From Sipunculus nudus (taxonomy: Eukaryota; Annelida; Sipuncula; Golfingiida; Sipunculidae): a stretch of DNA of 64,000 nt. The first letter of the stretch is position 1. Every line of letters starts with the position of its first letter. Location: positions 52,657,618-52,721,617 of the forward strand of contig CM049317.1 in the NCBI GenBank assembly GCA_026874595.1. The letters run 5' to 3'. The notes beneath the pieces were generated by a model. It searched no databases, had not been told where the DNA came from, and saw only the letters and a list, made by a program, of their open reading frames with translations. The translations under genes and the position numbers were made by a program. This document shows, in pieces, positions 16,220 through 63,911 of the stretch.

Positions 16220-16605
16220 GGTACCATAAGAATGCCACACAACAGAGCGCTCACCCCCGCAAAGAGAAAACAACCCTGCTGCATCCATCCCTTTATCCTG
16301 ATTAACACCAGTCAGGTCTTCCTAGACCTGTCTTCTTATCCTACATTTCAGTGTTACCAGGTAACACTCTACAATATTATTTAAGTTTCAACAGATCAAA
16401 AACATTTTGCTCGATCCTCCTCCGTTTTATCTGCATCCGCATCATGATTTCATTTGGTCTTCCCTGTCCCATGCTCCAATATGCCACAAAATGTCCTGGA
16501 AAAAGAGACACTTATGCTTAAAATTAAACAAACAAACAAGCAGAGGGACGGAGGTTTCGGGTAGGGGGGGAGAGAGGGGGGCACAACCTTTATGAAGGAG
16601 GTAAT

Positions 16606-17510
16606 ACATCTCCGTCTCACAAATACATCTGTCTCCAAAATACATCTGTCTCCCAAATACACCTGTTTCCAAAATACATCTGTCTCCCAAAAACACCTGT
16701 CTCCCAAATACACCTGTTTCCCAAATACATCTGTCTCCCAAATACATCTGTCTCCCAAATACACCTGTCTCCAAACTACATCTGTCTCCCAATTACACCT
16801 GTCTCCCAAATACATCTGTCTCCCAAATACACCTGTCTCCCAAATACACCTGTTTCCCAAAAACACCTGTCTCCCAAATACATCTGTCTCCCAAATACAT
16901 CTGTCTCCCAAATACATCTGTCTCCAAAATACATCTGTTTCCCAAAACATCTGTCGCTCAAATACATCTGTCTCCCAAATTCATCTGTCTCCAAAATACA
17001 TCTGTCTCTCAAATACATCGGTCTCTCAAATACATCTGTCTCTCAAATACATCTGTCTCCAAAATACATCTGTCTCCCAAATACACCTGTTTCCAAAATA
17101 CATCTGTCTCCCAAAAACACCTGTCTCCCAAATACACCTGTTTCCCAAATACATCTGTCTCCCAAATACATCTGTCTCCCAAATACACCTGTCTCCAAAC
17201 TACATCTGTCTCCCAATTACACCTGTCTCCAAAATACATCTGTCTCCCAAATACATCTGTCTCCCCAAAAAACATCTGTCGCTCAAATACATCTGTCTCC
17301 TAAATACATCGGTCTCCAAAATACATCTGTCTCTCAAAAACATCGGTCTCTCAAATACATCTGTCTCTCAAATACATCGGTCTCCAAAATACATCTGTCT
17401 CCCAAATACACCTGTCTCCCAAATACATCTATCCCAAAATTCATCTGTCTCTCAAATACATGTCTCCCAAATACATCTGTCTCTCAAATACATCTGTCTT
17501 TCAAATACAT
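16606..17510 (+). repeat. 17-bp minisatellite, about 53 copies
   Basis: Tandem copies of ACATCTGTCTCCCAAAT with common variants ACACCTG, CTGTTTCC, CTCTCAAA, CATCGGTC and single-base indels. Because 17 is not a multiple of 3, three units (51 bp) give a 17-residue period: SVSQIHLSPKYICLPNT on the plus strand, and a GRQMYLGDRCIWETDVF-like period on the minus strand. The plus frame at 16592-17512 is open for 306 codons. This follows arithmetically from a stop-free unit, so it does not by itself show a protein. A stretch of about 175 bp is present twice, 424 bp apart (about 16631-16807 and 17055-17231). Confidence 0.95.
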
Positions 17511-39400: not shown

Positions 39401-40790
39401 CAGTGCGTCCATCTGTGTGTCAGTTTCGATACATGAATTCACATATCTTCGGACTCGTTTGACCGATCGGGCTGAAAGTTTGCACGAATGTAGCTCTTGT
39501 ATAGCTTTATAACATACTCAAAATGTTGGCGCGCCCTGCAACCATTTTTTCACAGCTTCCATCTGGTCATCTGGTTAAATTACTCATATCTCTGCAGTGG
39601 TTGGACTTAATCGCCTAAAATTTTGCATGCCTATACATACTGGAGCGCTTTCCTGATTTTATGACAGGTGGCGCCACTACTTTCACGTTCACGCTGCAGA
39701 CATTCATGCTAATATCTCCGGACTGGTTTGACGTATCTTCATGAAAATTTGCATGTGTAAAAATCTTACATAGCTTTGTATCATAAACAAAATGGTTCCG
39801 CCACCTGCAACCGTTCCTGCATAGCGTCCATCTATTTGTCTGCCTAGGGTTACAATCACTCATATCTCTGCAGTGGTTGGACTTATTCGTTTGACCGCTC
39901 GGGCTGAAAGTTTGCACGAATGTAGCTCTTGGATAGCTTTATCAAATATAATATACACAATTAAAATTGGTGGCGCCATCTATAGCAATTTTTGCACAGC
40001 GTCCATCTGGTGATCTGATTAAAATCACTTATATCTCTGCAGTAGTTGGACCTATTCACCTAAAATTTGCATGCGTATACATCCTGGATAACTTTCTTAA
40101 TTTTATGACAGGTGGCGCCACCTACATTCGCGTTCACGCTGCAGACATTCATGCTAATATATCGGGACTGGTTTGACGTAATTTCATGAAACTTTGCATG
40201 TGTATAGATCTTTCATAGCTTTTTCTTATAAACGAAACTGGTGGCGCCACCTGCAACCTTTTTTTTTGTAAATCGTCCATCTGTTCGTCTGTCTTTAGTT
40301 AAAATCGCTCATATCTCTGCAGTGGTTAGACTTATTCACCTGAAATTTTGCATGCGTATACATCCTTGATACATTTCTTAATTTTATGACAGGTGGTGCT
40401 TCCTGCATTCACGTTCACGCCGCAGACATCCATGCTTAAATATCCTGACTGGTTTGACGTATCTTCATAAAAAAATTGCACATGTTAAGATCTAATATAG
40501 CTCTTTATTAGAAACTAAACTGGTGGCTCCACCTGCAAGCATTTTGCACAGCGTCCATGCGTTAGCCTACTGTGGGAATAAATCACTCATATATCGGCAG
40601 TGGTTTGACTTATCCACCTGAAATTTTGGTTATGTATACATCTTTGATAGTTTCTCTTTCAAATAACAGGTGGCGCCACCTAAAATCATGTTAACGTGGA
40701 AGACATCCATGCTAATATGCAACACATCTCACTCTATTTCCCCTTGCCACTCAATCCATGCCTCGCATCACCCATCATTCTCGGCGGAAA
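39400..40790. repeat. Tandem block built on GGTGGCGCCACC
   Basis: Roughly 280-bp units. Each has ATCTCTGCAGTGGTTGGACT, then a TTTTGCATGCGTATACATC-like stretch, then ACAGGTGGCGCCACC, GACATTCATGCTAATAT, a GGTTTGACGTATCTTCATGA-like stretch and a second GGTGGCGCCACC. Intact or near-intact palindromes occur near 39664, 39968, 40109, 40230 and 40668, with decayed ones near 39537, 40395 and 40520. No coding frame. Confidence 0.75.
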
Positions 40791-46689: not shown

Positions 46690-48842
46690 TCCTGGTCTTA
46701 ATTTCTCATTTTAGACACTAAGTGTAGCGGAAGACATCAGACTATCGTAAACGATAGAACCTTTTTACCCTATAAATGTACAGTTAATCGGCTGACATCT
46801 TGGATGACATTCCTAAAAATAAGTATAGACACCAAAACTAATGCAATAATATAAAGAGTGACTTATGAACATTTAATGCAAATGACGTAATCGGTATACA
46901 GTTTGGCGCCATCTTTGATTTGCAAGCCACATGACTACATAGCGATGCTTTATTTGGCCTCATTTGATTCACAAACCAATAAATATAACAGTTGATACAT
47001 AACTTACAACTCCATGATGAACTAGAATATCAGCAGAAGCTGACAAAAGCCCTCAGCCAAAAGAACAGTGTTTAGAGCTGGTAACAGTAACAAGTACAAA
47101 ATATCTGTTCTCACATGGATGTATATCTGTACATGTCTCAGTTATAAATTTAAAATGGAGAGATATGTACCATGATTCATAACAATCCACTAAATGCTTC
47201 CTGAAAAATAAGCTTCTAAGTATTATTCTATTATAAGCTCTGTGACCTTGAAAAGTAGGTCAAGGTCATCCATCTTCAAACTTGACCGAGATTTTGTCGA
47301 TATACATCTTCACCAAAGAAATAAAATTCCTATTGTGAATCCTTTTAGAGATATCCCGCTCACAAGGCCAAAGTTGAAAAATCCAAGAAAAATTAATTAA
47401 AATTAGAAATTGTTAGTGGCGCCCCCAAACTTGTGCAGCAGTTACAGACCATCAGTCCCTATGATCATAGTAAGTTTTGTGAAAATCCACTCAATGGTTC
47501 CTGAGAAATAAGCTTCTAAATGTTTTTGATAAAATAAGCTCTAAAACGTAGAAAAATAGCTCTAGATCACCCATCTTCGAATTTGACTGAGATTTTGTCA
47601 ATATACATCTTCACCGAAAAAAATAAAATTCTTACGGTGAATTCTTTTAGAGATATCTCGCTCACAAGTCCAAAGTTGAAAAATCAGATAAAAATTCATT
47701 AAAAATCAGAAATTGTGGGTGGCGCCACCAAACTTGTGCAGCAGTTACAAACCATCAGTCCCTATGATCATAGTAAGTTTTGTGAAAATCCACCAAATGG
47801 TTCCTGAGTAATAAGCATCTAAGTGTTTTTCTATAATCAGCTCTAAAATGTAGAAAAATAGGTTAAGGTCACCCATCTTCGAACTTGACCGAGATTTTGT
47901 CGATATATATCTTTACTGAAGAAATAAAATTCTGACGGTGGATCCTTTTCAAGATATCCCGCTCACAAGGTAAAAGTTAACGGACGCCGGAAGGACGGAC
48001 GGACGGACGGACGGACAGACAGCTTGGGTGACGACAATAGCCCATCAGCCTAAGGGCTGAGGGTAAAAAAGGACTTGTATGTGCGGGTGACGTAATGATG
48101 TTTCTGTTGGTGACAATGGATTCCAAATCAAGCAGTAGATACCAAAATTACAAATGAAACATGGAAAAAAAATTATGGCAATTTTTAAGGACTTGGCGGC
48201 CATTTTAGCGCCATATTGGATTTTTCAGTGACATAAATACGTAATGATGTTTTGTTGGTTCCAATGGATTTCTGAATCCAAAAACCTAGCAGTATAGAGA
48301 GCACATTTACAACTCTATGGTGAAAAATAAATGAAAAAGTTTTAGAACTTGGAGGCCATTTTGGACGCCACCTTGAATTATACAGTGACATAATAACGTA
48401 ATGATGTTTTTGTTAGTTCCAATTGCTTTCTTGACCCCAAAAACCCCATCAGTAGAAACCAAAATTACAACTCTACGATGAAACATGAATGATTTATGGC
48501 AATTTTTTAGGACGTGGCAGCCATTTCGGACGCCATCTTGGATTTACCAGTAATATAAATACGCAACGATGTTTTAATTGGTTTTAATTGATTCCTAGAC
48601 CCCAAAAACCTAATCATATAAACCAAAATTACAACTCTTTGATGGAAAATTAATGATTTATTGCCATCTGAGTGGCTTGGGGCCATCTTGGACGCCATCT
48701 TGAAAATAACAACTTGCCCTGGGTCCAATTTTGCTAAACTTTAGATATATCATTAAGCTAGTCCTAAAGTACAGAAAATCATCATAAAACAATTTCTTGC
48801 AATTTGTTTGGGGTTAAGCTATTTTTTACGTATTTTGACCCG
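46690..48842 (-). repeat. Right inverted arm
   Basis: Counterpart of 42773-43700 in reverse, enlarged by an inserted repeat. Four units of about 150 bp lie between 48095 and 48700 (GGACGCCATCTTGGATT, then ATAAATACGTAATGATGTTT). Confidence 0.7.
47051..48066. repeat. Repeat inserted in the right arm, three 300-bp units
   Basis: Edges CCCTCAGCCAAAAGAAC and CCTAAGGGCTGAGGGT are roughly inverted. Three units about 300 bp apart (near 47222, 47524 and 47825) share CCATCTTCGAACTTGACCGA, then GATTTTGTCGATATA, TTTAGAGATATCCCGCTCAC and GGTGGCGCC. It ends in GGACGGACGGACGGACGGAC near 47995-48015. Confidence 0.6.
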
Positions 48843-53995: not shown

Positions 53996-54292
53996 TACCG
54001 TCTCCCATATACCGTATATGTATATATATTGTGTATTCGTAACATATCTGATTTAGTAAGTAAAATAAATCTCGAAAAATATTTTGATATTTTAGTATTA
54101 ATATTATCATTATGACATTATAATATTATTTTTATATCGCAAAAGTTCGATAATTATAGATAGATATAATTCCAAATGATCCAGCACCTGGAGAAAAAGA
54201 AAGAAATGAGGTTATCTGATCAGCTGGACTGTGTCGAGAACTATTTAAAGTTGTTCTTCCTTCCGCCGGGTGTCTGGGTGTTGTGTTGTCTG

Positions 54293-54366
<74 letters not shown>
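54293..54366. repeat. (TA)n microsatellite, the longest in the window
   Basis: About 37 uninterrupted TA units. Confidence 0.95.
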
Positions 54367-54368
<2 letters not shown>

Positions 54369-54487
54369 TCTGTATACACCACTAGCTGTAAATAAAAAAC
54401 ATGCTTTTAACATGTCATTTTTTTTATCTTCGCGCCATTTATTTTCACAATCAGAGATTATTTTTCTTCTGTTCGCCCAGTTATATT

Positions 54488-55670
54488 AGCTCAGCTGACT
54501 TTCAGTCATATTGAGCTATAGCGATGGGTCATTGTCCGTCCTCCTTCCGTCCGGCCGTCTGTTAGCAAGGCACAAATCGTAATCGCTAGACCTAGAATCT
54601 TCTAACTGGATATCTAGGGAGGTCCGGGTAAAATCTCCTTGAAAACCTGAAAATAGGTCATTGTTACCTATATCCTCCGACCAATGGTGCTCAAAATTAC
54701 CCCCAGAATAATGAAAAACTTGATACAGAAGTTCCTATATCTGTATAACTAATGCATTGATTGTCACGATTCTCTCCATAGTTATTGATCTATTAGTGTT
54801 TCATCATTTCCTGAAGACTGTAGGGGCCACCTGTATTTTTGTTATTGTATATTTTTGATACCTTCAAAGATGAGGTCATCTGTAAACAGAAGACAAATCG
54901 TAGCCATCAGACCTAGAAACTTCTAACTCTAAATCCCTGATGGTCTATAAAAAAATCTTCATGGAAGCCTGAAATTAGGTCTCTGTTACCATTATCATTA
55001 GAGCTATGGGGCTCAAAACACCTCCTAGAATAATTAGAAATTTGATTCAAAAGCTCCAGTGTCTGAAGTACTAATGATTGTTTGCATGCATATTCATCAT
55101 GGAGTGTTTCATCAGATCCTGCAGACTGGTGGCGCCACCTGGATTTTTTTTTCTAAATTTTTACGCATTTACTTAATTTTTTTTTTGTTTGAGACCTTAA
55201 AAGATGCTGTCATCTGTTAACACTGCACAAATCGTACCTATTGCACTTAGAATCTTCTACCTTGACATCCAGGGAGGTCAATGAAAAATCTCCTTGGAAA
55301 CCTGAAATTAGGTCTGTGTTACCCATATACTCCGAGCTATGCTTCAGTTGAATGGGGAAACCTCCTACAAAATTTGGTATTCAGATGATAAAATTTCTTT
55401 GTGAATGTCTTCCTAGTTTCAAATTTTACACATTTTCATCATCGCAGGTGCTGAATCGTGACAATTTTGCACCTAGTGACCCCTTCTCATCATCTACCTC
55501 CACATGGTTATTTAGGTCACCGTGACCTCATTTTGATAAATTACCGGTTTCTGCTCAGTGTCCTTACGACAACCAGTACCAAACATAAATGCATCTAGTT
55601 TCACACTACAGCCAATATCAACTTGTCAACCAGCTGAGCGTCATGACCAATGGGTCACTTGTTTTAGTCG
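54488..55670 (+). repeat. Interspersed repeat, TTAGCTCAGCTGA to CAATGGGTCACTTG
   Basis: The left end TTAGCTCAGCTGACTTTCAG is followed by TCCGTCCGGCCGTCTG; the right end is CAGCTGAGCGTCATGACCAA, then TGGGTCACTTG. Inside, GCACAAATCGTAA, then AGACCTAGAATCTTCTAACT, then GGGAGGTC recurs three times (about 54560, 54890 and 55225), and GGTGGCGCCACCTGG lies at about 55127. Same family as 17562-20925 (reverse) and 24370-25258. Confidence 0.6.
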
Positions 55671-55679
55671 CATTTGACA

Positions 55680-56133
55680 AACTTCAGATTAATTACCCCA
55701 ATTCACGTAGCATACCAATGTTGTTATCTTCACATGATTTGATAAACAAACCTTAACTGTCTGTACAGCTTATCAACTGAACGTGTGACATTGATATCGA
55801 TCTCGATAATTGCAGGGGACCACCTTCTCTCTCTTTATGTGATTGGCGTGTTTTAATTACCTTTACCACCTTAAACATAAAATATTTCATGTATAGGTCT
55901 CGTGAAAGACTTGTTTTATTTTATTGACATCAAGCAAACTAAACACCTACATCTTTCGCCGGTGGTAGATCAATAGGGCAATAGGTTTTAGGCCTTTAAA
56001 GGTCATGGAATGTTGATGAGAATTCTGCATGTATTCCAAAGAAAGTGTCCCATAATTGTTCATTTTGAATACATTATTAAACATTTTCTTGCGGAGACTC
56101 CCACCAGGGTATATTGGACTGTCTTTCTCTTCT

Positions 56134-56137
<4 letters not shown>
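55680..56137. other. No gene seen
   Basis: No coding or repeat structure that I can support. Confidence 0.45.

Positions 56138-56174
<37 letters not shown>
56138..56174. repeat. (TA)n microsatellite
   Basis: About 18 TA units, 60 bases left of the large palindrome. Confidence 0.95.
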
Positions 56175-56177
<3 letters not shown>

Positions 56178-56263
56178 GGTAGTGTTACCCTCCGATGTAA
56201 AGTGCTCTATGGCCTGCAAGCTAGGCCAGAGCGGTATAACTCTGAAGAAAAACAACACTGTTA

Positions 56264-56311
56264 ATTCACAACAGACTGTTTCACGGGATGCGACCCGATC
56301 ATCAGGTGAAT
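56264..56311 (-). ncRNA. Candidate hammerhead ribozyme, minus arm
   Basis: Exact mirror of 56358-56405 on the other strand. In a transcript across the whole palindrome the two arms would instead pair with each other, which would hide both cores. Confidence 0.55.
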
Positions 56312-56357
56312 GTGGTTAGAATGAAGCTAACGTCGTGGTTAGCTTCATTCTAACCAC

Positions 56358-56405
56358 ATTCACCTGATGATCGGGTCGCATCCCGTGAAACAGTCTGTTG
56401 TGAAT
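56358..56405 (+). ncRNA. Candidate hammerhead ribozyme, plus arm
   Basis: Stem I ATTCAC (56358-56363) pairs with GTGAAT (56400-56405). The core CTGATGA is at 56364-56370. Stem II CGGG/CCCG (56372-56375 and 56382-56385) has loop TCGCAT. GAA is at 56387-56389, and stem III ACA/TGT (56390-56392 and 56396-56398) has loop GTC. U at 56399 is the predicted cleavage position. All invariant core bases (CUGANGA, GAA, U before H17) are present. One weakness is U facing U at positions 10.1/11.1, where natural ribozymes usually have a pair. Confidence 0.6.
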
Positions 56406-56429
56406 TAACAGTGTTGTTTTTCTTCAGAG

Positions 56430-56434
<5 letters not shown>

Positions 56435-56462
<28 letters not shown>
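56435..56462. repeat. (TA)n microsatellite
   Basis: TA units that continue directly from the right arm of the palindrome. Confidence 0.95.
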
Positions 56463-56467
<5 letters not shown>

Positions 56468-56469
56468 CC

Positions 56470-56717
56470 GTTGGCTTAGGTCTGAGAAAATCCTCGCAAA
56501 TGTTTTTTTTTTAAGTTTTGTCCGTGTCGAATATTGTGGTCAATGGGATCTGCTGACCAGCTGAACGACATTGAATATGGGTCATACCGTGATTACGTTT
56601 CCCGTTCACTTAATTCTGGTTGCCTTATAGCTGCGGGGCTGTATATTCGTGGTTTTATCATTATTTTCTGTGTTTCACGGAAATCTTGTTTCGCGGTCAA
56701 TCAGTGTATATATATTT

Positions 56718-56772
<55 letters not shown>

Positions 56773-57300
56773 CTTCATTCACTGAAATCTTTCATACTCC
56801 GTCGGCTTAGGGACTGCGAGCCCAGCATTTTTGTGCGTTCGCCACATGTTTTAACTATGATAGGCCCAGCTTATCCAACAAGGACGGGGTCACCTGACTC
56901 ATGCCGGTGGACTGCTTGTATCATTAAGCTTACAAAAGCCAAAGCCCAGCTAAAACGAGTCGCATGTTAATTTGGTTAATGTGAGCATGTGACTCACTAA
57001 TTTACGAAGTGGCATCACGTATTTCGCAAAATATCAAATGAAGATTTAAAACAGTCTGTGGGTTAAGGGATTTTTTTTAATTGAAATCTACAATGTAAAC
57101 TTGTGGTCCTAGAAAGATTAATAGGTTTCTGCTGTGCACCAAACATGAACATTTAATTATTGCAAATAATACAGCAGACCTCTTTCTTAATATATAAATC
57201 ATTTAGACTAACAAAGAGCATGCATTCATGACACATTTTATTTCGTTTAGGGATAGTCAAATGATCCATTGATGTGCCTGATCATGAACGTAAGGCTACC
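56470..57300. other. No gene seen; another (TA)n at 56722-56771
   Basis: CAGCTGAACGACATTGAATA, then TGGGTCAT at 56558-56586 looks like a decayed end of the CAGCTGAG repeat family. Otherwise nothing is supported. Confidence 0.45.
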
Positions 57301-59731: not shown

Positions 59732-60181
59732 TGTTAGTGACGGCCATCATGCCATGTGACTTTATATACAAACTGGTGGATGAATAGTTGCCTTTTCACG
59801 CCTACGGTGCCCTATTTAAGCCTACGCGTATGTAGTTCCTTATGCATAAATTACTTTCGGGGAAACTCCCCTTTTTGTTTTGCAAAGGAACCTTGCGAAT
59901 TTTTAACACAGGCGATATTAACGTAACGGTAGTGACCTCTGCTGGAGATTGGACACTGTGATTTCTATAGGTAGGAATGTTTATAATTCGATCATGTACC
60001 TGTCATATACAAGTTTATGTATGATTTGTAATTTTACGACATGTCAGATATACGGCATCATGACCGTTTTCCGGCACCTAGTGTTAAGCAAGTGAACTGA
60101 GTAAAGTGCGCCAAGCAAAGACCAGCCTCGTCATTCTTTCAACAATCAATCATTTAAAACACGTTCTAACAGAACACGACA
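59732..60181 (+). mobile_element. 5' LTR of a Gypsy element
   Basis: Starts TGTTAGTGACGGCC and ends AACAGAACACGACA, directly before the primer-binding region. It includes TATA-like TTTATATACAAACTGG (59759) and CTATTTAAG (59811). The right edge is firm because TTGGCGACGACGG and then gag follow. The left edge is inferred from the TG start and cannot be checked, because the 3' LTR lies beyond the window. Confidence 0.55.
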
Positions 60182-60199
60182 TTGGCGACGACGGATAAA
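60182..60199 (+). promoter_or_regulatory. Primer-binding site
   Basis: TTGGCGACGACGGATAAA follows the LTR immediately. TGGCGAC-type sequences in this place are usual in metazoan Gypsy elements. The priming tRNA is not assigned. Confidence 0.5.
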
Positions 60200-60415
60200 A
60201 CCCGAAACAACCCATTCATGTTCAGATTGACCGCTGTCAGTCTCGTGTTTGTGTGCATTATCCTCGCTCTAACAGCGGCAGGCTCAAGAACTCTTATTAT
60301 CGCCCAGTCAGGGGCTAAACGTGAGTACGAACTTTCTCTGTTAACTTATGAACTCATACGATATCGTGATCGTCAGTTCTTCTCTGGACATTTGTTAAAA
60401 CATTCAGTAAACGAA

Positions 60416-61051
60416 ATGGCAGCAGCTCTGCCTCATTATGAGCGTTTTGACGCAACCAGTGATGCTCAAAGGGGGGCTCGATGGGAAGCTTGGCTGAACG
60501 GACTCTCATATTTGTTTGAAGCCCTAGAGTTAATTCAAGCACCCGTACCTCCACGCAACGGTGACGACGTGCTAGCCGCTAACAGGAAAATCAACCGGCG
60601 TAAGAGAGGCATGCTCTTGCATTATGCTGGACCAGAAACACAGTCAATATTCCAAACATTATCTGAATCTGAAACTGGTGACAGTTCTGATTATGATAAG
60701 GCTGTGTCAGCACTAACAAAATATTTCAACCCAGAGAAAAACAAAGAGTTCTGCCGATACAAGTTTCGCACTGCATATCAACTTGATGGAGAATCCATTG
60801 ATGAATTCCATACTAGATTGAAACAATTATCATCAGGATGTGCTTTCAGTGACATTAACTCTGAGATTAAAAGCCAAATCATACAGAAATGCTCCTCATC
60901 AAAGCTAAAGAGACAAGCATTGGAGCAAGGCTATGACCTCAGCACATTGCTGTCAGCAGCCAGAACTTCTGAAGCGGTAGGTAACCAACTCCAAGAAATG
61001 AACATTACATCAAAGAAAAAATCCAGTAAGAGTGCAAATGATCAAAACTAA
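60416..61051 (+). CDS. Gypsy Gag, capsid part
   Basis: The likely start is ATG 60416 (MAAALPHYERFD), the usual beginning of Gag in this kind of element. The frame ends at TAA 61049-61051 after 211 codons. Family features are WEAWLNGL near residue 27, LLHYAGPETQSIF near residue 70, YDKAVSALTKYFNP and then FCRYKFRTAYQLDGESIDEF, and SQIIQKCSSSKLKRQAL. These match the retrotransposon capsid region that forms the virus-like particle. The same frame is open upstream to 60182 and has an in-frame ATG at 60218 followed by a hydrophobic stretch. The zinc knuckles lie in the next frame, so the reading frame changes between about 61002 and 61051. Confidence 0.8.
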   Translation: MAAALPHYERFDATSDAQRGARWEAWLNGLSYLFEALELIQAPVPPRNGDDVLAANRKINRRKRGMLLHYAGPETQSIFQTLSESETGDSSDYDKAVSALTKYFNPEKNKEFCRYKFRTAYQLDGESIDEFHTRLKQLSSGCAFSDINSEIKSQIIQKCSSSKLKRQALEQGYDLSTLLSAARTSEAVGNQLQEMNITSKKKSSKSANDQN

Positions 61052-61613
61052 ATCTCACAAACAAAAACAAACATCAAGCAGTCAGTTCAAGCCTGATAAA
61101 CCAGTTACATGCTACTTTTGCGGAGGATCTTACCCTCACTTCAGCACGTGTCCTGCGAAAGGTAAAACTTGCCACAAGTGTGGCAAACAAAACCACTTTG
61201 CTTCTGTATGTTGGGGAGGAAAGAAACCAGCTAAAAAAACTAACCAACATGGTGTAACAAACCAGTATACCAACAAACAGAGACATGAAAACAAACAATC
61301 TCTTAACCAAATACAGACATCAAGCTTAACTGTAACAAACAGTGAATCTAGTGATTCTGACTCTGATGAAAGCTCTGAGCTTTGCTTTAAACTCAAAACT
61401 GGGCAGAATAATCAGTTACCTTTAACATCAATAACAATAGCTGATCATGAACTTGATGTGTTAGTTGACACTGGTGCTAGTGTCAATGTGATTGACCACA
61501 CTGGTTATAATACCATACAGAAACCTCAGCTAAAAACATCCAGAACAAAAGTGTTCCCATATGGATCTGACAAACAAATTCCAATTCTTGGTGAATTTAC
61601 AACTGCGATTTAA
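61032..61613 (+). CDS. Gypsy nucleocapsid and protease segment
   Basis: Frame +1 relative to Gag, overlapping it by 20 bases, with no ATG of its own that precedes the conserved part. It contains two CCHC zinc knuckles (CYFCGGSYPHFSTC and CHKCGKQNHFASVC), a Ser/Asp-rich spacer and the aspartic protease active site LVDTGASVNVID near residue 150. A TAA at 61611-61613 ends it, but the same frame resumes at once with recognisable Gypsy sequence, so the stop interrupts what would be one Gag-Pol reading. Whether the frame change is programmed or a mutation cannot be told from one copy. Confidence 0.8.
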   Translation: MQMIKTKSHKQKQTSSSQFKPDKPVTCYFCGGSYPHFSTCPAKGKTCHKCGKQNHFASVCWGGKKPAKKTNQHGVTNQYTNKQRHENKQSLNQIQTSSLTVTNSESSDSDSDESSELCFKLKTGQNNQLPLTSITIADHELDVLVDTGASVNVIDHTGYNTIQKPQLKTSRTKVFPYGSDKQIPILGEFTTAI

Positions 61614-63911
61614 CACAAAAACAAAATCACAATCGCTACATTCCTGGTATCCAGCAGCGAATCAGGATCACTGATAGGATATCAGACAGCTTTGGAACTG
61701 GGAATTGTAAACACAATCAACAAGCTTGAAGTGCAGCCGACAGTGCAAACATACAAAGTGAAACATCCTAAGCTATTCACAGGTATTGGAAAGCTCAAAG
61801 AAACACAGATTAAACTTAGTGTGGATCCAACAGTCAAACCAGTTGCACGAACTTATCACAGAAAACCATTTCATTTAAGACAGAAAATATGTGACAAACT
61901 CAGACAAATGGAAGAACAGGACTTGATAGAGCCAGTTGAAGGCCTAACACCCTGGGTAGTACCGCTAGTCTGTGTACCCAAACCGAAAAACCCTGAGGAC
62001 ATTCGTTTGTGTTTAGACATGCGTGCACCGAACACAGCCATTCAGAGGACCAGACATATTACACCACACCTAGATAACCTGATTGCTGATCTGAATGGTG
62101 CTGCTGTATTCTCAAAACTTGACATGAATCAAGCATATTATCAACTAGAACTGCATGAAGAATCGCGTTATCTCACAACTTTTGCATCACCGCTAGGCTT
62201 GAGAAGATTTAAACGCTTAGTATTCGGTGTGAACTGTGCATCAGAAATATTTCAAGATGCTATCTCTAAAGTTTTGAGTGGACTTAAGGGTGTCATTAAT
62301 GTATGGGATGACATCATTGTATTTGGTGCCAATCAAGATGAACATGATCAGAACCTTGAAGCTGTGTTTCAGAGACTTGAACAGCATGGCTTAACATTAA
62401 ATGCAAATAAGTGTGAGTTCCACAAGGACGAAGTGACATTCTTCGGCTTCGTGTTCAACAAGAATGGAATTGCACCTGACAACACAAAGGTTGAAGCCAT
62501 CAAACAGACAAAACCACCAACATCGCCAACCGAAGCCAGAAGCTTTCTTGGAATGACAAATTACCTGTCCCGATTCATTCCGGATTATTCAACTATTTCA
62601 GAACCAATCCGTAACCTCACAAGGCAGCAAACAAAATGGCGATGGACTGAACAAGAACAAAACACATTTGATAAGTTGAAGCAAACACTTGCCAGCAGTG
62701 AAGTTCTTGCCTACTTTGACCCGAACTTGAAAACTGAACTCGTTGTGGATGCAAGCCCTGTAGGTGTCGCTGCAATCCTGCTGCAGTGTCAAACTGATGG
62801 TTCATATAGACCGTTAGCATATGGAAGCAGAGCGCTCACAGACGTAGAACGTCGATATTCACAAACGGAACGAGAAGCGCTCGGTATTGTTTGGGGGTGT
62901 GAACATTTCCATACATACATATATGGAGCAGATTTTGATCTTGTGACCGATCATAAACCCCTGGAACTAATCATGAACAATCCCTACTCAAAACCTCCAG
63001 CTAGAATTGAACGATGGGGTCTTCGTCTCTCCGAGTACAAATTCAACGTAATCTACAGACCTGGTAAAAACAACCCGGCTGTCTTTATGTCTCGAAATCC
63101 TTATGTGACTCGTGCAAGTGATAAAATGGCAGAACAGTACGTACATTTCCTCGCAAATCAAGCTATGCCATTAGCTCTCTCACTTCAAGAAGTTGAGATC
63201 ACAACCAAACTTGACCCTACACTACAGGCAGTGAAATTCGCTCTTCAGAGTGGTAACTGGCATAAAGCAAAACAAATGTCAGATGTCAACATGAAAGATT
63301 TTAATGTGCTACACACAGTACGAAATGATCTGACCATAGTTGACAATGATCAAGACCGTGATAATTTCATTGTGTTAAACAACAACCGTATAGTTATTCC
63401 AAAGTCACTGCAGAGCAGAGTAATTCAGTTGGCCCACGAAGGCCATCAAGGTATTGTTCGAACCAAACAGCTCCTACGAACAAAAGTTTGGTTTCCTGGT
63501 GTAAACAAACTCGTAGAGGATGCATGTCAAAACTGTCTACCATGTCAATCATCAACACCTGCAAAGAAAACTGAACCAGTGCAAATGTCACAACTGCCAC
63601 CAGGCCCATGGCATTCCCTTAGTGTCGATTTCTGTGGACCGTTTCCTAATGGTTACTATGCCTTGGTTGTGATTGATGACTATTCTCGATATCCAACAGT
63701 TTCGTTCATGAAATCAACATCAGCCACAACTACAATCGACAAGTTTGACAATTTATTTGCGTTGTTCGGCATTCCTTCATGTTTTGTACAGATAATGGCC
63801 CTCCGTTTCAAAGCCGTGAATTCCGCAGATTCTGCCAGACTATGGGCGTCTCACACCGCAAAATCACGCCATATTGGCCTCAAGCCAATGGGATCGCTGA
63901 ACGATTCATGA
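61614..63911 (+). pseudogene. Gypsy Pol: reverse transcriptase, RNase H, integrase N-part
   Basis: Same frame as the protease segment, open from 61614; the first ATG-type codon is at 61692. Counting from there, the RT has VVPLVCVPKPKN near residue 90, FSKLDMNQAYYQL near 140, FKRLVFGVN near 175 and the catalytic pair in NVWDDIIVFG near 205. RNase H has VVDASPVG near 351, RYSQTEREALGIVWGCEHF and then TDHKPLE. The integrase zinc finger is HEGHQGI with CQNCLPC near 582-620, followed by SVDFCGPFP with the first catalytic Asp. After about 63787 the frame leaves the integrase core and ends at a spurious stop (63909-63911). Confidence 0.85.

Follow-up and report, generated by a model that had tools for sequence, protein, structure and literature searches.

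The hammerhead-bearing palindrome described here, located in a 64,000-nucleotide stretch of Sipunculus nudus DNA (the window; GCA_026874595.1, contig CM049317.1, positions 52,657,618 to 52,721,617), is probably a recent, very short insertion of an autonomous Penelope-like element (PLE), whose two arms were primed from both cut strands of the target. Its mirrored pair of hammerhead-like motifs is explained by the known architecture of Penelope elements, the motif being present twice because copying of the element apparently started at both cut DNA ends simultaneously.

The motif and the palindrome in the window

The hammerhead-shaped sequence occupies 56358-56405 on the forward strand, and an identical mirror copy occupies 56264-56311 on the reverse strand. 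Its possible stems I, II and III, read from the sequence letters and a structural descriptor, measure 6, 4 and 3 bp, its core is formed by CUGAUGA and GAA, and U17 precedes a predicted cut at 56399|56400 (between 56270 and 56269 on the minus strand in the mirror copy). These coordinates, stems, core letters and U17 had been proposed in an earlier sequence-only reading and were confirmed by sequence and descriptor, as was its claim of a U.U at positions 10.1/11.1. When the strict descriptor was applied to both strands, the window was matched at exactly these two sites, and no match was obtained on either strand of 150 first-order Markov windows. In the covariance search suggested by the same reading, a 63-nt stretch matched Hammerhead_1 (RF00163) at 23.8 bits, with an E-value of 2.6e-4 for that stretch against all 4227 Rfam families, but this lies below the 34-bit gathering cut-off, and an Rfam scan of the window returned no gathering-level hits. 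The mirror copy scored equally (23.8 bits), in line with the earlier claim of a motif in each arm, and Hammerhead_1 was unlisted in two longer E-value Rfam scans (311 nt and 96 nt).

The two motifs lie in the arms of an inverted repeat (56235-56331 and 56338-56434; 97 bp, 100% complementary, 6-nt spacer), which is part of a 260-bp insertion sited in (TA)n. Within the window, blastn found no further copy of the palindrome and only short weak matches, and a six-frame Pfam scan of 54001-57002 detected no family in any of the six frames. The features are given below in window positions and in element coordinates (E), in which E +1 is the first nucleotide 3' of the predicted hammerhead cut.

56138..56174, no strand assigned: (AT)n target microsatellite on the long-tail side (sequence, window self-comparison)
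56175..56234, minus strand: 60-bp 'tail' of the minus-strand copy, E +36 to +95 (similar long end in 29 similarity-fetched loci)
56175..56193, minus strand: terminal hairpin of the tail with loop ACAC, adjoining the long end (predicted fold)
56235..56331, minus strand: left arm of the 97-bp perfect inverted repeat (pLTR piece)
56264..56311, minus strand: mirror copy of the hammerhead-like motif (RF00163 at 23.8 bits; descriptor)
56322, minus strand: mirror position of the inferred transcription start
56332..56340, no strand assigned: head-to-head junction, comprising the 6-nt spacer and a GTT that fits both copies (3-nt overlap)
56338..56434, plus strand: right arm of the repeat, with its end at TTATA (E +35)
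56347, plus strand: inferred transcription start, the A of an Initiator-like TCATTC at E -52 (peak of insertion 5' ends)
56358..56405, plus strand: hammerhead-like motif, predicted cut 56399/56400 (Rfam, descriptor, copy alignment)
56432..56463, no strand assigned: (AT)n target microsatellite on the short-end side

At the junction, the left copy extends to E -70 and the right copy begins at E -61. The long copy (-70 to about +97) matches an intact element elsewhere in the genome at 99.4%, and the short copy (-61 to +35), which overlaps it by the GTT, matches at 100%. The sequence-only reading had considered a mirrored pair odd and had expected both motifs to be hidden in a transcript of the full palindrome. 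Such pairs are not odd for Penelope elements, in which head-to-head inverted pLTRs have been described (PMC3846280, in part), and a transcript of either strand carries a single hammerhead in sense orientation, the other arm being its antisense.

Elsewhere in the window, consecutive open frames at 60170-63911 on the plus strand, near the window end, contain by eye zinc-knuckle-like CCHC, protease, reverse transcriptase and integrase-like sequence, and look like a Ty3/Gypsy-type retrotransposon. A long minisatellite-like array at 16603-17510 (self-match offsets of about 17 bp) is open in several frames, and 39443-40718 and 47184-47978 are diverged direct repeats of several hundred bases.

The parent element in the genome

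Across the genome (1.43 Gb, 153 contigs), the motif was found in 3,426 copies when searched as a 36-mer with at most 3 mismatches, a reversed-pattern control giving no match in the same genome. With the 260-bp insertion as query, 82 matches were obtained among 40 scored of 1,843 candidates, and copies of the whole palindrome are present elsewhere in the genome. At one locus (L040), motif copies occur in tandem units 2,924 bp apart that carry intact 700-aa reverse-transcriptase-like ORFs; two such tandem arrays stand head to head (L040:557-9501) and form a near-perfect 8.9-kb palindrome (99.9%). The hammerhead-like motif is carried by the pLTR of the element, and the first ATG of the ORF lies about 180 nt 3' of the predicted cut.

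Protein comparisons gave few matches. The reverse-transcriptase piece of the ORF matched Pfam RVT_1 with an E-value of 0.0022 and 18.2 bits, below the cut-off of 29.6, and the GIY-YIG model was absent among the ORF matches in Pfam, NCBIfam and PHROGs. Read by eye, the ORF contains what we take to be YRDD and, near its C-terminus, an IVY...YIG-like stretch, presumably the endonuclease. PDB sequence searches returned entries with unrelated names (best E 0.077 and 0.3), none of four stretches in viral_contigs that matched a peptide pattern was confirmed as a relative, and exact-pattern scans found nothing in viral_contigs or genome_contigs.

The parent is taken here as an autonomous Penelope-like element by its architecture, the protein evidence being weak. 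Tandem units with pLTRs are accompanied by head-to-head inverted copies, and one of the inverted pLTRs carries a tail. The targets are AT-rich: in 28 of 30 aligned palindromes, one or both ends have 6 or more TA or GA units within 25 bp, the flanking units being mostly TA. Genome copies, tandem units and pLTR location thus bear out the link to Penelope elements drawn in the sequence-only reading. One of the two palindromes with no flanking microsatellite (L023) has TACATAC in both flanks, perhaps part of a longer, decayed target duplication.

Two fixed ends and the priming of the arms

The ends of the insertions were compared in two sets. The first comprises 30 aligned palindromes, namely the window copy and 29 loci picked by similarity to it, so that the ends they share are partly a product of selection. 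The second, taken in list order, comprises 88 copies at 74 loci from 100 listed of 1,129 exact 30-mer matches, after omission of 11 copies in tandem arrays (L039-L042) and one that was unfetched. Two ends recur. The short end, at E +35, reads UUAUA and is joined to (TA)n, and the long end, at E ~+97 (95-97), lies just beyond the ACAC-loop hairpin. All 14 two-armed palindromes of the list-order sample combine a short end (+33 to +35) with a longer one, which in 10 of them was followed only to +69/+70. Given 27 long ends among the 88 copies, independent ends would yield 14 of 14 mixed pairs with a probability of about 6e-6. Among the 30 aligned palindromes, two (L033 and L036) are without the +35 end.

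These pairings bear on fold-back (self-priming), in which a folded-back first strand primes synthesis of its own complement, as proposed in 2013 for Penelope families of Adineta vaga, there on an antisense template (PMC3846280, in part). In the window, pairing of the end GTT with AAC over the 6-nt spacer is possible and the arms are perfect, and in the aligned set the arms are equal within 4 nt in 15 of 30 palindromes and the long arm reaches further upstream in 7, all of which suits fold-back. It is contradicted in the remaining 8 of 30, where 7 to 59 nt of upstream sequence occur in the short arm only and the tail in the long arm only (the exclusive 7 nt of L033 being marginal), and likewise in L043, where the short arm holds 214 nt of exclusive upstream sequence. 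Since each arm in these copies has sequence that the other lacks, neither can be a copy of its partner there. In addition, fold-back from +35 should yield +35/+35 palindromes, and none was found among the 14. As a general account, fold-back is thus unlikely, although it could apply to the palindromes outside the 8, the window included; for the window copy alone, it fits as well as dual priming does. The fixed short and long ends, together with the exclusive sequence of the arms, favour dual priming at two fixed sites.

Upstream ends and the inferred RNA start

For the upstream ends, the two arms of one palindrome were counted separately. After removal of 29 of the 88 ends at a stretch edge, 6 at alignment breaks at -96 and 2 beyond -85, 51 usable ends (-85 to +1) were left, 15 of which fall exactly at E -52. 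This position is the A of TCATTC, which we take to be Initiator-like. An exact pattern that extends to -52 in both arms is matched by 31 palindromes across the genome, 17 of which stop at this position in both arms, to within one nucleotide (list read by eye). The peak at -52 fits run-off at the 5' end of an RNA. Furthermore, an extra C follows -52 at 25 of the 34 arm ends in the 17 palindromes, and at 16 of 22 when CTA-type fillers are left aside (P about 2e-4 against a background of 1/3). An untemplated C would point to copying of the cap; it is suggestive only, because the arms can be the source of a filler and some end positions carry an ambiguity of one nucleotide.

Conservation, predicted folding and possible use of the hammerhead

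In combining CUGANGA, GAA, A15.1-U16.1 and H at position 17, the motif has the core letters of a type I hammerhead. In the consensus of that type, the closing pair at 10.1-11.1 is G-C. Here U.U occupies these positions in 154 of 156 fetched copies and a standard pair in none, which marks it as a family trait and not as local decay. The remainder is similarly uniform, with 46 of the 48 motif positions varying in 0-7 of the 156 copies; the two variable positions are one in loop III (96/156) and H17 (11/156, of which 8 are A). No pair with a double change was found in the 156 copies, and there is nothing to score for covariation because they form one family. A search of the Sipunculus genome with RF00163 found no match and found none in 14 control genomes either, and is therefore uninformative. 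In predicted folds, other pairings are favoured over the motif stems: all 11 folded stretches give stem III a pairing probability below 1%, and the probability for stem I, 0.89 in the bare motif, is at most 1% once RNA from -52 extends to +35 and further.

Would an active hammerhead nevertheless cleave the element RNA in vivo and set the insertion template? The core letters are conserved, and protein can enable a PLE hammerhead to cleave (PMC11167929). Moreover, in two palindromes (C6:62108037 and C15:20081620), identified among 8 that match a pattern for arms meeting near the cut, neither arm ends more than 1 nt from the predicted site, and one arm of L051 begins at +1, so that rare use of cut RNA is possible. 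Against this, none of the 88 list-order copies clearly starts at the cut site and one possibly does (L064), compared with 15 at -52; the peak of ends at the cleavage site that would be expected if the ribozyme shaped the templates is absent, and U.U occupies 10.1/11.1. In L019, the fetched sequence reads G for A14 in both arms, so that a template with a damaged core was inserted. Template-setting cleavage is accordingly unlikely, and the data argue that the hammerhead is usually uncut in the insertion template. L019 and the end data agree with what is described for the hammerhead of the Anolis element PAc, which is dispensable for insertion in vitro (PMC11167929).

Centres of the palindromes and the source of the arms

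If the palindrome were itself a mobile unit, a fold-back or MITE-like element amplified whole, the many genome copies that share both ends would be expected. This origin is very improbable. There are 28 distinct centres among the 30 palindromes, whose junctions show an overlap of at most 7 nt or a filler of at most 32 nt, so the palindrome arises anew at each insertion and is not copied as a unit; single-arm and ORF-bearing copies, furthermore, have the same ends. The arms within one copy also covary more than shuffled pairs do: in the 29 copies compared (L036, with its broken right arm, was omitted), within-copy arm distances sum to 96, a value as low as which was reached in none of 10,000 shuffled pairings (minimum 122). 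A common RNA for both arms is thereby likely but not proven, because the partner arm is nearest or co-nearest in just 17 of the 29 copies (strictly nearest in 4). At L044:2962-3260, E -56 is joined to E +210 and the sequence turns back at +48, which looks like a template-switch product.

The least credible origin is a retrozyme, the term for small non-autonomous units, repeated in tandem, that have a canonical type I hammerhead and circular RNA: animal type I hammerheads are often located in such units, but these are described as tandem copies of 150-450 bp (PMC7229834, in part), whereas the copies here are inverted and belong to a parent element with a 700-aa ORF.

Proposed insertion mechanism

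For the dual priming preferred here, the following course is proposed. The element endonuclease would cut both strands of a (TA)n target. One target 3' end would pair with UAUA, reverse transcription beginning at +35, and at the other it would begin at the hairpin, at about +97. Both copies would then proceed upstream through an uncut hammerhead, and their ends would be joined head to head via microhomology (GTT in the window) or filler. In many copies the RNA 5' end would correspond to the Initiator-like start at -52, the source RNA of the window copy having apparently reached at least -70. The hammerhead-like motif would thus be located in the 5' leader of the element RNA, where the putative ribozyme may serve to trim read-through multimers of the RNA, conceivably only when assisted by protein; its cleavage would be unneeded for these insertions.

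A more specific version is put forward tentatively, at slightly less than even odds. A single RNA with two fixed start sites, one per cut strand and probably served by two enzyme subunits, would make the short/long palindrome a regular product, whose 5' ends record the RNA start and whose tails record both primings, a small minority of the templates being hammerhead-cut.

Significance

How inverted and tandem PLE insertions are built is unsettled between fold-back (PMC3846280, in part) and two-strand extension (PMC11167929). The Sipunculus genome holds thousands of motif copies with ends readable to the base, and the sampled copies argue that in at least some of the palindromes each arm was copied from RNA independently, from two fixed starts. 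The gain is a genomic record of PLE insertion, with two fixed start sites, an inferred RNA start and a usually uncut hammerhead, through which existing genomes can be used to test both the priming model and what PLE hammerheads do. Altogether, the interpretation given in the sequence-only reading is partly supported.

Comparison with known systems

In the open-access literature searched, no statement was found that attributes palindromic PLE copies to dual priming at two sites. The closest precedent is a 2024 study of PAc of Anolis (Penelope/Poseidon), in which two start sites and cleavage and extension of both strands were described in vitro (PMC11167929).

Compared with RF00163, the Sipunculus motif has all the catalytic-core letters and three possible stems, but scores 23.8 against 34 bits and has U.U in place of the base pair at 10.1/11.1. 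Metazoan retrozymes likewise carry a type I hammerhead within a retroelement; they are tandem and non-autonomous, whereas the Sipunculus copies are inverted pLTRs of an ORF-bearing element (PMC7229834, in part).

In the Penelope families of Adineta vaga, the inverted pLTRs are mostly head to head with an optional tail on one, and these families share with the Sipunculus element the solo pLTRs and junction palindromes as well; the tail measures about 60 nt in Sipunculus and 31 bp in Adineta vaga, and the fold-back model proposed there misfits 8 of the 30 Sipunculus palindromes (PMC3846280, in part).

PAc likewise has tandem units with pLTRs, a hammerhead motif near the ORF start, AT-rich targets and two start sites, and its hammerhead, which needs protein to cleave, is not required for insertion in vitro. 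Its reverse transcription initiates internally, 111-118 nt into the ORF, at an AC-rich stem-loop; since PAc is cut at +26, this is 85-92 nt past the cut, a distance similar to that of the Sipunculus long end (~95-97, after the ACAC loop). The two elements differ in that the first ATG of the ORF lies about 180 nt 3' of the cut in Sipunculus (L040) and at stem II in PAc, and in that the two ends of the Sipunculus element are about 60 nt apart, unlike the adjacent start sites of PAc (PMC11167929).
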